From Pseudonocardia sp. (GTDB taxonomy: Bacteria > Actinomycetota > Actinomycetes > Mycobacteriales > Pseudonocardiaceae), in the NCBI GenBank assembly GCA_030453005.1, contig JAKDLE010000021.1:1-12982 (forward strand): a stretch of 12,982 bases of DNA, read 5' to 3'. Of the stretch, positions 2,330 to 9,400 are shown in pieces. Position 1 is the stretch's first letter, and each line of letters opens with the position of its first letter. The position numbers and the translations under genes are program-made. The notes below the pieces were generated by a model. That model was not told the origin of the DNA, did not search any database, and worked only from the letters and a program-made list of their open reading frames with translations.

Positions 2330-3388
2330 ATGGGTATCGAATTGACGCGCACGGTCGCCTCGATCCAGGTCGGGCAGCGGCATCGCAGCGACCTCGGCGA
2401 CATCGACGCGCTGGCACGCTCGATCGACCAGCGCGGTCTGTTGCAGCCGATGACGATCACCCCCGACGGGGTCCTTGTCTGCGGCAGGCGCCGCCTGGAA
2501 GCCATCCGAGCGCTGGGGTGGAAGACCACGAGCGTGTGGGTGCGCTCGGACGTCTCGGACCGTCTCGGGCACCTGCTCGCCGAGCAGGATGACAACGCCG
2601 AGCACAAGCCGCTGACCCAGGTCGAGGCGGCCGGCCTGTACCGGGAGCTCACGCAGCTCCTGCGCGAGGACGCCGAACGCCGCCAGCAGTCCACCCGGTT
2701 CAGCGCCGAGCATCAGCCGGGTGAGGACGGTGCGCGAAAATTTCGCGCACCGTCCGACCAGATAGGTCGCGTCTCCCGGCAGGCCGCGGCGATGATCCCC
2801 GGCGGTGCCTCGGATCGCACGCTCGACAAGATCGACTACGTCAAACAGGCCGCCTCGCGCACCGACCTGCCCACCGACATCCGCGAGCAGCTGGCCGGGG
2901 AGGTCGCGATCCTCGAATCAGGCGGCGCGGTCGAACCGGTCTATGCCCGCGTGCGTGCCCTGTTCGATGAGGACCGTGAGCATCGCCAAGCCGATCTGCA
3001 CACCCTGGCCGAGGAGGCGGTCGCTCGCGTCACCGCCGCCAAGACCACAAAGAAGAAGACGCCAGCCCGTCAGGCGACGCCGCCGACGGGAGCGGTCGGG
3101 AAGTGGCCGGTGCGGGCGTTCGTGCTGACCTGGCGGGAACTGGAATCGTGGTGGACCCACTACGACATGGACGAGCTCGTTACTGAGCTCACCCTCGACC
3201 AGATCGACGGGTTCCTCGCCACCGCCGCCGGTACCGCCGAGTTCGCGGCCCGGCTCCGCGCCGCCCTCGACCGCCACAAGAACGCCACCCCCACGGCTGG
3301 CGACGCACGCGAAGACGCTGAGGGTGCCGCCGCGGAGGGCGACGACGAGGATGAGGGCGGTGGGCGGCCGCTGCTGCGGGCGATTTGA
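2330..3388 (+). CDS. ParB/Spo0J-like DNA-binding protein
   Basis: This 352-residue protein begins with a ParB N-terminal (ParB/sulfiredoxin-fold) domain: the IQVGQRHR start, the DIDALARSIDQRGLLQPMTI stretch and the conserved phosphate/CTP-binding loop CGRRRLEAIRALGW at residues 51-64, which matches the GERRxxA box of ParB proteins. The DDNAEHKPLTQVEAAGLYREL part follows, as in ParB-type proteins. After a variable loop at about 125-150, a central helical region (SRQAAAMIPGGASDRTLDKIDYVKQAA) resembles the KorB/ParB-type helix-turn-helix area. The C terminus has a basic Lys/Arg linker (about 238-250), a folded segment with WRELESWWTHYDMDELV, and a very acidic end. AGGGAGGGGG at 2311-2320 precedes the ATG. 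No ParA partner is seen nearby, so it may act in regulation or DNA transfer rather than classical partitioning. The loop-coding DNA contains the 31-bp palindrome listed separately. Confidence 0.88.
   Translation: MGIELTRTVASIQVGQRHRSDLGDIDALARSIDQRGLLQPMTITPDGVLVCGRRRLEAIRALGWKTTSVWVRSDVSDRLGHLLAEQDDNAEHKPLTQVEAAGLYRELTQLLREDAERRQQSTRFSAEHQPGEDGARKFRAPSDQIGRVSRQAAAMIPGGASDRTLDKIDYVKQAASRTDLPTDIREQLAGEVAILESGGAVEPVYARVRALFDEDREHRQADLHTLAEEAVARVTAAKTTKKKTPARQATPPTGAVGKWPVRAFVLTWRELESWWTHYDMDELVTELTLDQIDGFLATAAGTAEFAARLRAALDRHKNATPTAGDAREDAEGAAAEGDDEDEGGGRPLLRAI
2725..2755. promoter_or_regulatory. Perfect 31-bp palindrome inside parB, candidate ParB or regulator binding site
   Basis: The left arm GGACGGTGCGCGAAA (2725-2739) and the right arm TTTCGCGCACCGTCC (2741-2755) are exact inverted repeats around a single central A at 2740. 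The site falls in codons 132-142 of the ParB-like gene, in a region that appears to be a linker. It forces AT-ending codons (CGA, AAA, TTT), which are rare in this window. This suggests selection on the DNA rather than on the protein. Binding by the ParB-like protein itself (a parS-like or autoregulatory site) is the simplest guess but is untested. Confidence 0.6.
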
Positions 3389-6480: not shown

Positions 6481-6486
6481 CGCGTG

Positions 6487-7926
6487 ATGGCGCTGTGCGA
6501 TGTGCCCGTGATCTCGAACGTCTGCGACGTCGCCGGTGAGGCGACCGCGACGGTCGTGGCTGCCCCGTTCGACTTCTTCGCCCAAGCCCTCGGCGGGGCG
6601 GCGGGCTGGCTGATCGAGGCGATGTGGACCGTGTTCGACACGACGACCCTGGTCGATGTCACCCAGGCCGGCTACCTCGATGTCTACAACCTGCTCTTCG
6701 GCATCGGCGTGTTCATCGTGCTGCTGTTCTTCTGCTTCCAACTCATCCTCGGCCTCATCCGCCGCGACCCCACCGCCCTTGCCCGCGCCGCCCTCGGCGC
6801 GGGCAAGGCGGTCTTGGGGTCCTTCGTCGTGATCACGCTCGCGGCGTTGGCGTTGGAGATCGTCGATCAACTGTGCATCGGCATCGTCCAAGCCGCCGGG
6901 GAGACAACCGAGACGATGGGCGACAAGATCGTCCTCCTCACCGCGGGCCTGACCGCGATCAACGTGAGCGCCCCAGGGGTCGGGGCGATCGTGACGATCT
7001 TCCTCGCCGGCCTCATGGTCTCCGCGATCTGCATCGTCTGGTTCTCCCTGCTGATCCGCAAAGCGCTGCTGCTCATCGCGATCATCCTCGCCCCGCTGGC
7101 GTTCGCCGGAGCCGCCTGGGATGCCACCCGCGGGTGGATCGGGAAGTGGGCGGCGTTCGTCCTCGCCCTCATCGTCTCCAAACTCGTGCTCGTGGTCGTC
7201 TTCTTGGTGGCGATCACGCAGATGGCGACGCCGATCGAGATGGACCTGACCGCGATCACCGAACCGATCACAGGCATCGTGATGCTCGCGATCGCCGCGT
7301 TCGCGCCCTACATGGTGTACCGGCTCATCGCGTTCCTCGGCTTCGACGTCTACAACCAGATGGGCATGGAACAAGAGGCCAAGAACGCCATGAACCGGCC
7401 CGTCCCGATGCCGAACAAGCCCCAAGGTGATGGCCCGAAGAAGGTCCTCGACAACGACGACGGCGGCGACGGGGATGGAGGCGGTGGTGACCCGCCCGGA
7501 GGCGGCGGGCCACGCCCCACCCCGGAACCGGCACCCGCGTCCACAGAAGGCGGTGCCGGAGCCGGCACCGGTGCCGGCGAGGCAGGCGGGGCCGGAGCGG
7601 GAGCCGGCGGGAGCGCAGGCGCGGGCGCCGGGGGTGCGGCAGCGGCAGGCCCCGCGGCAGCGGTGGTCGTCGGCGCGGAGGTCGCCAACGAGTCCTGGGA
7701 TGCCGGCCCCGAGGCCGGCGAGCAGATCGGCGGGCAGGCCGAGGCCGCGACCGACGGCGCCAACCAGAACACCACCGGCCCGAGCAGCGACGGCGGTAGT
7801 GACGGCGGACAGGCACCGCCGCCGCAGACACCGCCACCGAACGCGCCCAGTGGTCCCCAGACGCCTCCGCCGTCCTCGGATGGCGACGGGGCCGGACAGC
7901 AGCCGCCGACCGCGGACAAGGAGTGA
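6487..7926 (+). CDS. TrbL/VirB6-like polytopic conjugal transfer protein
   Basis: This 479-residue protein has about seven to eight membrane helices in its first 290 residues: around 68-95 (VYNLLFGIGVFIVLLFFCFQ), 107-127, 155-183, 186-205, 212-236 and 250-280. One conserved-looking segment is LLIRKALLLIAIILAPLAFAG followed by TRGWIGKWAAFV, typical of VirB6/TrbL proteins of Gram-positive type IV secretion systems. From about residue 315 to the end the chain is a low-complexity Gly/Ala/Pro/Asp/Gln-rich tail with few hydrophobic residues, presumably disordered and cytoplasmic or periplasm-facing. In the family this protein forms the inner-membrane channel together with VirB8 and VirB4. The tail is made of GC-rich tandem-like DNA, including an 18-bp palindrome at 7561-7578. 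The gene ends four bases before the SCO6880-like gene. Confidence 0.88.
   Translation: MALCDVPVISNVCDVAGEATATVVAAPFDFFAQALGGAAGWLIEAMWTVFDTTTLVDVTQAGYLDVYNLLFGIGVFIVLLFFCFQLILGLIRRDPTALARAALGAGKAVLGSFVVITLAALALEIVDQLCIGIVQAAGETTETMGDKIVLLTAGLTAINVSAPGVGAIVTIFLAGLMVSAICIVWFSLLIRKALLLIAIILAPLAFAGAAWDATRGWIGKWAAFVLALIVSKLVLVVVFLVAITQMATPIEMDLTAITEPITGIVMLAIAAFAPYMVYRLIAFLGFDVYNQMGMEQEAKNAMNRPVPMPNKPQGDGPKKVLDNDDGGDGDGGGGDPPGGGGPRPTPEPAPASTEGGAGAGTGAGEAGGAGAGAGGSAGAGAGGAAAAGPAAAVVVGAEVANESWDAGPEAGEQIGGQAEAATDGANQNTTGPSSDGGSDGGQAPPPQTPPPNAPSGPQTPPPSSDGDGAGQQPPTADKE
7561..7578. repeat. 18-bp palindrome in the Gly/Ala-repeat DNA of the TrbL tail
   Basis: GCCGGCACCGGTGCCGGC is its own reverse complement, and a near-palindrome (GGTGCCGG/CCGGCACC) overlaps it from 7551. 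It lies in codons for alternating Gly, Ala and Thr, where GCC/GGC/ACC/GGT choices easily create such symmetry. A coding by-product is the likelier explanation. Confidence 0.4.
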
Positions 7927-7930
7927 GGCG

Positions 7931-9400
7931 ATGAGCCAGACGACGAAGAACCAGCAGCCCGGCTCCGACCTGGTGCCGGTGAAGTTCAGCCGCCTCTCGC
8001 GCCGTGGCGTCCTCCTCGGCCTCTCCGCCTCGCAACTGATCTGCCTGGCAGTCGGAGGGATCACGCTGGTCGGTGCGTTCTACGCCGGCGGCGGGATGCT
8101 CCTGGCCTACACCGCACCGATCTGGACGATTTCAGCGGCGATGACGTGGATGCCGGTCGCGGGCCGCCCGGTCGTGGAGTGGATTCCAGTCGCCGGATGG
8201 TGGCTCTGGCGAACCTCTGGCGGGCAGCTGATCTACCGGCGCCGCATCGTGGCCCCACGCCCGGTCGGGACCCTCGCCCTGCCCGGCGATGCCGCACGGC
8301 TGCGAGAGTATCGCGACCCTGAGACCGGGGCCGGCATGATCCACGACCCCCATCAGGCCCGCCTCACCGTCGTCTGCGAAGTCGTGCATCCCGCGTTCGT
8401 GCTCCTCGACCCCGCCGAGCAGGCCCGCCGCGTCAACTCCTGGGGTCGCGTACTCGCCACCGTTTGCCGTTCCGGGCGGATCGGCACGCTGCAGGTGTTG
8501 GAGCGCACCCTGCCCGACTCCGGGACCGGCCTGGCCGAATGGTGGGCCGCACACGGCACCACCGACGATTCGTGGGCATCGACGACCTATGCGGAGCTCA
8601 TCGACCGTGCCGGACCCGCCGGGGAACGCCACGCCTCGACCATCAGCCTGTCCCTGGACATGAAGACCGCCGCGAGGCAGATCCGCACCGCCGGCGGCGG
8701 ACTGAAAGGTGCCGCCGCGGTGCTGCGACAAGAAATGTCGACCCTGACCGCGGCGCTGCGCTCGGCGGACCTCGCCCCCTCCGGCTGGCTCAGTCCAGGC
8801 CGGGTGGCCGTGGCGCTGCGCAGTGCCTACGATCCCGCGATCGCCGCGACGTTGGAACGCCACGGCGAGATCGGCCAATCGTTGGCGACCGCCGGACCGG
8901 TCGCGGTGAACGAGACCTGGGGCAGCCTGCGCACCGACACCGGCTACCACGCGGTGCTCTGGATCTCGGAGTGGCCGCGAGCGATGGTCTATCCGGGGTT
9001 CCTCGCCCCGGTCCTGCTCTCGACCGGCATACAGCGCTCCCTGTCGCTGATCTACACGCCGCTGCGCACCGACCAGGCCGCCCGCGACATCCGCAAGAAG
9101 AAAGTCGAACACGTCTCCGACGCCGCACAACGCCGCCGGATCGGGCAGATCGAGGACGCCTCCCAGACCGCCGAGCTCGACGATGTGCTCCAGCAGGAAG
9201 CCGATCTCACCGCCGGACACGGTGTCCTGCGCGTGACCGGCCTCATCGCGGTCTCCGCGACCAGCCGCGAGGAACTCGACGCGGCGGTCTCGAAGATCGA
9301 GCAGGCCGCGATCCAGGCCTCCTGCGAGACCCGGCGGCTCGTCGGCCAGCAGGCCGTGGCGTTCACCGCCGCGGCCCTGCCGCTGTGCCGAACCCTCTGA
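7931..9400 (+). CDS. SCO6880-family protein (PrgI-like N terminus plus VirB4-N-like domain)
   Basis: This 489-residue protein has a polar N terminus and VKFSRLSRRGVLLGLS, leading into two or three membrane helices (about 30-75), and then WWLWRTSGGQLIYRRRI. This is the arrangement of the SCO6880 family seen next to VirB4 genes in actinobacterial conjugative elements. The remaining 380 residues are soluble, with TLALPGDAARLREYRD, SLSLDMKTAARQIRTAGGG and a long helical segment around DIRKKKVEHVSDAAQRRRIGQIED. They resemble the N-terminal, non-ATPase domain of VirB4/TraC proteins; no Walker motifs are present. ATG 7931 is supported by AAGGAG at 7918-7923, which overlaps the end of the TrbL gene. 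It probably docks the separate VirB4 ATPase, encoded two genes downstream, to the membrane channel. Confidence 0.85.
   Translation: MSQTTKNQQPGSDLVPVKFSRLSRRGVLLGLSASQLICLAVGGITLVGAFYAGGGMLLAYTAPIWTISAAMTWMPVAGRPVVEWIPVAGWWLWRTSGGQLIYRRRIVAPRPVGTLALPGDAARLREYRDPETGAGMIHDPHQARLTVVCEVVHPAFVLLDPAEQARRVNSWGRVLATVCRSGRIGTLQVLERTLPDSGTGLAEWWAAHGTTDDSWASTTYAELIDRAGPAGERHASTISLSLDMKTAARQIRTAGGGLKGAAAVLRQEMSTLTAALRSADLAPSGWLSPGRVAVALRSAYDPAIAATLERHGEIGQSLATAGPVAVNETWGSLRTDTGYHAVLWISEWPRAMVYPGFLAPVLLSTGIQRSLSLIYTPLRTDQAARDIRKKKVEHVSDAAQRRRIGQIEDASQTAELDDVLQQEADLTAGHGVLRVTGLIAVSATSREELDAAVSKIEQAAIQASCETRRLVGQQAVAFTAAALPLCRTL

Follow-up and report, generated by a model that had tools for sequence, protein, structure and literature searches.

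The stretch of DNA analyzed in this work, 12,982 nucleotides of a contig from a Pseudonocardia sp. assembly that we refer to as the window, carries a ParB-like gene, followed downstream by conjugation-type genes (SCO6881 and SCO6880 families) and by a gene for an M23 peptidase (Table 1). Of 23 wide loci surrounding ParB-like genes, 21 had a counterpart of the SCO6881-type gene. An N-terminal domain of the ParB/CTPase type places the encoded protein in the ParB superfamily, with a ParB_N score of 22.8 bits that is under the curated 26.3 and a TIGR00180 score that is also under its curated cut-off. The profile match to Spo0J/ParB/Noc chains (E 3.5e-12) covers the N domain only. Foldseek ranked Noc, ParB and KorB at the top (best E 1.3e-7, for Noc); the best fold match was the Noc-NBS complex 7ol9, the KorB structures 8qa8 and 8qa9 were also matched, and the match is local, with a whole-length TM of 0.2. 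The CTPase motif residues G52, R54 and R55 are kept in 85 sequences, and the protein may bind and hydrolyse CTP. At least 814 relatives were found at E 0.001 among 7997 candidates scored, and the best organism-named match bore the name of Brevibacterium sediminis (94% identical). The proteins closest to that of the window are from Brevibacterium, and six same-genus genomes of the group of the source assembly had no match; therefore, the contig may be a mobile element or may have been mis-binned.

Table 1. Features of the ParB-like gene and of its surroundings, in positions of the window.
Feature	Position	Strand	Basis
ParB-like gene, 352 amino acids, site in its linker	2330..3388	+	ORF, profile and Foldseek matches
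Perfect palindrome of 31 bp, with arms of 15 bp and A2740 at the centre; copy of the site in the window	2725..2755		Sequence
25-bp core, dyad kept across homologues (CGG...CCG outer, symmetric-variable inner)	2728..2752		Pairing across 66 25-mers
HTH region, residues 144-176 (helices 144-154 and 162-176)	2759..2857	+	AlphaFold2 model
R147 codon; residue co-varies with site positions 6-7	2768..2770	+	Co-variation and tree test
R163 to K167 codons, recognition helix; co-variation of 163, 164 and 167 with site positions 2-4	2816..2830	+	Co-variation
SCO6881-family gene, neighbouring conjugation module	6484..7926	+	118.7 bits, under curated 325
SCO6880-family conjugation ATPase-type gene	7865..9400	+	460.6 bits, over curated 60

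An earlier note on this DNA had described a perfect palindrome with a single central A within the parB-like coding sequence, and inspection of the sequence confirmed this palindrome. Positions 2725-2755 read GGACGGTGCGCGAAAATTTCGCGCACCGTCC, the arms 2725-2739 and 2741-2755 are complementary at 15 of 15 positions around A2740, and the whole spans codons 132-142 of the open reading frame. The longest perfect arm (spacer 0-10) in each of 100 dinucleotide-matched random sequences of window length was 8-13 bp, never 15, and the palindrome is thus beyond chance. Its location in a linker was also borne out, since the AlphaFold2 model (pTM 0.44) is poorly ordered before the HTH, with a mean pLDDT of 53 for residues 131-140. 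The claim that the site forces rare codons held for TTT (3 of 69 Phe codons in the nine ORFs of the window) and CGA (19 of 250 Arg codons) but not for AAA, which accounts for 16 of 66 Lys codons. A search of the 4.45-Mb source assembly (72% complete) returned a single occurrence of the central 29 bp at up to 3 mismatches. The window has a second long inverted repeat at 6777-6808, CCTTGCCCGCGCCGCCCTCGGCGCGGGCAAGG, with 14-bp arms and a 4-nt spacer, within the SCO6881-type gene. This repeat is not conserved because the longest perfect arm near its place reaches only 3-7 bp in 21 counterparts.

The homologous genes that were compared amounted to 106 distinct ORFs, a subset of all matches, taken from at most 30 loci per genome search and 20 further loci. 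The family was defined by an N domain more than 40% identical to that of the window's protein together with an HTH signature, and it comprised 85 ORFs. A dyad site with at least 10 of 12 complementary pairs was found in 84 of them, in the linker before the HTH and always in the same place and codon phase; 54 sites were perfect (12/12), 25 had 11 pairs and five had 10. The sole exception, L122, had 8 of 12 pairs and lacks the site. In a control segment of the same 85 genes, 10 pairs were reached in four cases and 11 in none. Outside the family, six of 21 ORFs had 11-12 pairs and the other 15, whose similarity to the query is mainly in the ParB N domain, had 7-8. The centre of the best site fell at codon position 3 in all 85 family members.

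The encoded peptide alone makes symmetry easier. When synonymous codons were redrawn and the best place was taken, 24.5 of the 85 genes were expected to show at least 10 of 12 pairs. With the centre fixed, however, the same redraw gave an expectation of 0.72 perfect sites against 54 seen, and of 6.2 sites with 11 or more pairs against 79 seen; 70 of the 85 genes were individually significant (p<0.05) and 15 were not. The earlier note had suspected selection for the DNA site and had named freely varying synonymous codons in homologues as the finding that would speak against it. The excess of perfect sites over the redraw does not bear out such free variation. The exact peptide GARKFRAPS is not conserved, and the palindrome is. 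These results support the view that the site is under selection as DNA.

The letters of the site were analyzed in the 86 of 106 ORFs that had a score of at least 8 and an odd centre. They comprise 66 distinct 25-mers in which both arms change together: 768 of 792 pair cells are Watson-Crick, compared with 61% when the right arms were re-dealt and 21-35% in slid registers. Complementarity drops from 62 of 66 sites at position 12 from the dyad to 34 of 66 at position 13, and therefore the site is 25 bp long with a 1-nt centre. The palindrome of the window, like some other copies, reaches beyond this core. The outer CGG/CCG is near-invariant (G-C at positions 10 and 11 in 64 of 66 sites, C-G at position 12 in 58 of 66), positions 3-9 show symmetric variation, and the codon phase is fixed in 85 of the 86 ORFs.

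This variation follows the HTH of the encoded protein. Among the 82 proteins that remained for the distance and residue-base tests after L005, L126 and near-identical proteins were left out, the distances between sites correlated with those between HTHs (partial Mantel r 0.46; p 0.002, the lowest value that 499 permutations allow), while the N domain gave -0.19, the C domain 0.05 and the segment after the HTH 0.11. Residues 107-129, just upstream of the site, gave a correlation of 0.21, as opposed to 0.41 for the recognition helix, which is farther off. The correlation declines gradually downstream and, since the site and the HTH are near neighbours in the gene, part of it could stem from their joint inheritance through recombination. 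Individual residues were linked to individual bases. At residue 147, D went with CC at -7/-6 in 35 of 36 cases, E with CC in 8 of 9 and K with GT in 19 of 20; R147, which is the residue in the window's own protein, was mixed (GT 7, CG 3, TG 1). At residue 167, Q went with G at -2 (41/41) and K with A (12/12), R being mixed. At residue 164, R and M went with G at -2 (26/26 and 12/12) and T with A or C (28/29). At residue 163, T went with C at -4 (36/39), K, R and H with G (17/17) and G with T (4/4). All four residues fall in predicted helices of the HTH, 147 in the first helix and 163-167 in the recognition helix of the AlphaFold2 model.

These links were then set against a tree that was built by a quick method without the linker and the HTH (83 rows, 57 to 83 per test). 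For an acidic residue versus K or R at 147 there were 12 independent pairs, of which a mean of 11.4 agreed and none opposed (median p 0.001), whereas the crossed controls gave 0.5 agreeing to 0.5 opposing and 2.4 to 1.1. Residues 167, 164 and 163 had 3.9 of 6, 3.8 of 4 and 3.9 of 5 independent pairs in agreement and none opposing; they fall short of significance because each has only 4-6 such pairs. Among 118 of 120 homologous proteins from outside the DNA set, K147 came with Gly135, the residue forced by the GT site, in 45 of 45 cases, a count that is uncorrected for relatedness. Five of the same 118 had D or E at 147, one of them with Gly135, and R147 proteins were mixed. The half-site changed at least 54 times on the 83-gene tree. 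Chromosomal parS, which also occurs inside spo0J of B. subtilis, is by contrast nearly constant across bacteria, and its near-invariant sequence, TGTTTCACGTGAAACA, was not matched by any of the 66 distinct 25-mers, which have other letters.

A degenerate consensus of the site was searched for in 13 genomes. All 14 exact matches lay within ParB-like genes, as did another three with 1-2 mismatches; a further four, with 3 mismatches, lay outside such genes, about as many as a reversed-pattern control produced. A regulon of many sites was therefore rejected, the copies being confined to ParB-like genes apart from these control-level matches. No further copy at up to 3 mismatches was found in 24 sequences of 13-21 kb (the window, L002, L003, L129 and L142-L161), in which the reversed control gave nothing under 6 mismatches. 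Weak second copies, at a distance of about 6-7 kb from the ParB-like gene, occur at L154:2036 (4 mismatches) and L153:3187 (5 mismatches) and may represent a second site in these loci. L157 had no site of 11 or more pairs. One ParB-like gene, L116 (G716:C34:27635-27713), contains two perfect 25-bp palindromes that differ in sequence and lie 54 bp from each other within one open frame; the second of them is one of the three consensus matches with 1-2 mismatches. Incompatibility as the force behind divergence was not supported: 26 co-resident pairs of sites differed by a mean of 7.4 positions, less than the 9.1 between genomes, and two of the 26 differed by 0 or 1 (pairs with L122 were dropped and L052 had no entry). 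A 26-bp palindrome, ACCAGGGCGCTGGTCAGCGCCCTGGT, is present at L003:789-814 and L129:780-805, in both cases about 9.2 kb upstream of the ParB-like gene.

The computation thus supports four points: the DNA is under selection, the site has the dyad symmetry of a duplex, it has co-evolved with the HTH, and it is present as a single copy where searched. Because the site letters track the HTH on independent tree pairs, it is very likely that the encoded protein binds within its own gene, and we assign a probability of about 0.83 to this predicted interaction. The palindrome would be the cognate site, similar to parS or to an operator, of the ParB-like protein whose gene contains it, as the earlier note had suggested when it proposed a parS-like or autoregulatory function. 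A dimer of the protein would read the 25-bp duplex symmetrically, with the first HTH helix contacting, through residue 147, positions 6-7 as counted from the dyad, and the recognition helix contacting positions 2-4 through residues 163, 164 and 167. A similar arrangement is found in ParB/parS and Noc/NBS, where a palindrome is recognized symmetrically by the HTHs of a dimer and the specificity depends on a few HTH residues (PMC7383237). By analogy with ParB, Noc and KorB, a CTP-dependent clamp might then load at the site and slide into the flanking operon.

As for the outcome of this predicted binding, we lean with low confidence towards a KorB-like silencing or an autoregulation of the transfer operon. 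KorB of RK2 silences from its OB operators and resembles the present case in being a ParB-fold protein of a conjugative element that recognizes a palindrome with an odd centre, as in the OB oligonucleotide (PMC11790492). The two cases differ in that there are several OB sites upstream of promoters (PMC11790492), whereas here the site is inside the gene and no second clear copy was found in the 24 sequences. The same binding could serve another purpose, that of a centromere-like site for segregational stability, which we consider a doubtful yet credible outcome. This possibility agrees with the ParB fold of the protein and with the presence of one cis site per gene, and it has a parallel in SpdA2 of the Streptomyces plasmid pIJ101, which binds a palindrome in its own coding region. 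Loss of the sps palindrome or of spdA2 had an effect on segregational stability and none on transfer (PMC4170104). Both systems belong to actinomycete conjugative elements and have a DNA-binding protein (binding being predicted in our case) with a palindrome inside its coding region. However, SpdA2 is a small unrelated protein and sps is a highly conserved 12-bp motif repeated 2-3 times (PMC4170104), as opposed to a ParB fold and a usually single 25-bp site with letters that vary together with the HTH. A partition system with a nearby parA was rejected, as a search of 17 genomes, some of them with short contigs, found no ATPase of the PF13614 family within 20 kb of a ParB-like gene; the nearest, in G895, is about 26 kb away. 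The window's protein also lacks the ParA-binding motif [LFI]G[KR]G[LFI] (as given in PMC12704722). Silencing or autoregulation is favoured over segregational stability because no parA was found nearby and the motif is absent.

Other explanations dispense with binding by the encoded protein. The palindrome could be bound by another protein of the element or of the host, such as an integrase, a relaxase or a different regulator; it adjoins a conjugation module, and palindromes suit many binding proteins. We regard this as improbable in view of the residue-specific links between the site letters and the HTH encoded in the same gene, and of the flat crossed controls. A use of the site in DNA transfer, which the earlier note had also raised, received no direct support. 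Compensating changes in complementary arms would also fit the stem of a hairpin in the transcript or in a transferred single strand of DNA. Yet the innermost pair (+-1), which could not form in a hairpin, is complementary in 65 of 66 sites, and the mismatches (6 G.T, 7 C.A and 11 other) show no preference for wobble pairs. Because G.T is not favoured and the innermost pair is kept, the site is one of duplex DNA and an RNA hairpin was rejected; these features suggest that a symmetric dimer reads the duplex. A hairpin would furthermore leave the co-variation with the HTH unexplained, and we judge it very improbable. Template switching can perfect palindromes and the peptide eases symmetry, but a by-product of such mutation in a repetitive peptide, with no bound protein, is the least credible reading given the sharp 25-bp edge, the fixed codon phase, the near-invariant outer CGG/CCG, the lack of conservation of the repeat at 6777-6808 and the co-variation with the HTH.

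Binding of a protein within its own gene thus has a precedent in SpdA2 and sps. In the open-access literature we found no report of a co-varying site inside a ParB-like gene, and the ParB-type version is, as far as we found, unreported. The accessible parts of PMC12207404, PMC7022226 and PMC6399470 describe no site inside parB, and the word stem 'palindrom' is absent from the available main text of the 2025 survey of the ParB-CTPase fold (PMC12704722). If the predicted binding is correct, a binding protein and its site can travel on mobile elements as a single, indivisible gene and can shift their specificity jointly, with no separate sites to update. The more than 80 protein-site pairs matched within this family would then make the evolution of ParB-type specificity directly testable, and a sequence signature would be available to find such one-gene modules.

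Similar palindromes were found beyond the family. Seven of 16 further ParB-like genes had one at p 3/100 or better, located before the HTH as read from the translation. A gene of a Streptomyces atratus plasmid and a related viral contig have a perfect palindrome with 14-bp arms and different letters, a Vibrio phage gene has a perfect 24-mer, and two Staphylococcus phages, a Pseudomonas phage and a Mycobacterium prophage have palindromes with 1-2 mismatches. The other nine genes did not stand out (L138, at 6/100, L139, L133, L163, L165, L166, L131, L136 and L167). The palindromes of the Vibrio phage and of the Streptomyces plasmid are single in their own records at up to 3 mismatches. Scans of viral contigs found four and one in some scans and none in others. 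It is more likely than not that one-gene modules make up a broad class of the ParB-like genes found in several phyla on integrative elements, plasmids and prophages, each combining a clamp with its own loading site in the codons before the HTH. Since each such gene would carry its own cognate site, genomes alone would then provide a natural table of matched protein-DNA specificities and a readable residue-to-base code. A Mycobacterium prophage locus has a perfect 30-bp palindrome, CAAGGTTAGGGTCTATAGACCCTAACCTTG, at L135:486-515, near its ParB-like gene and outside it.
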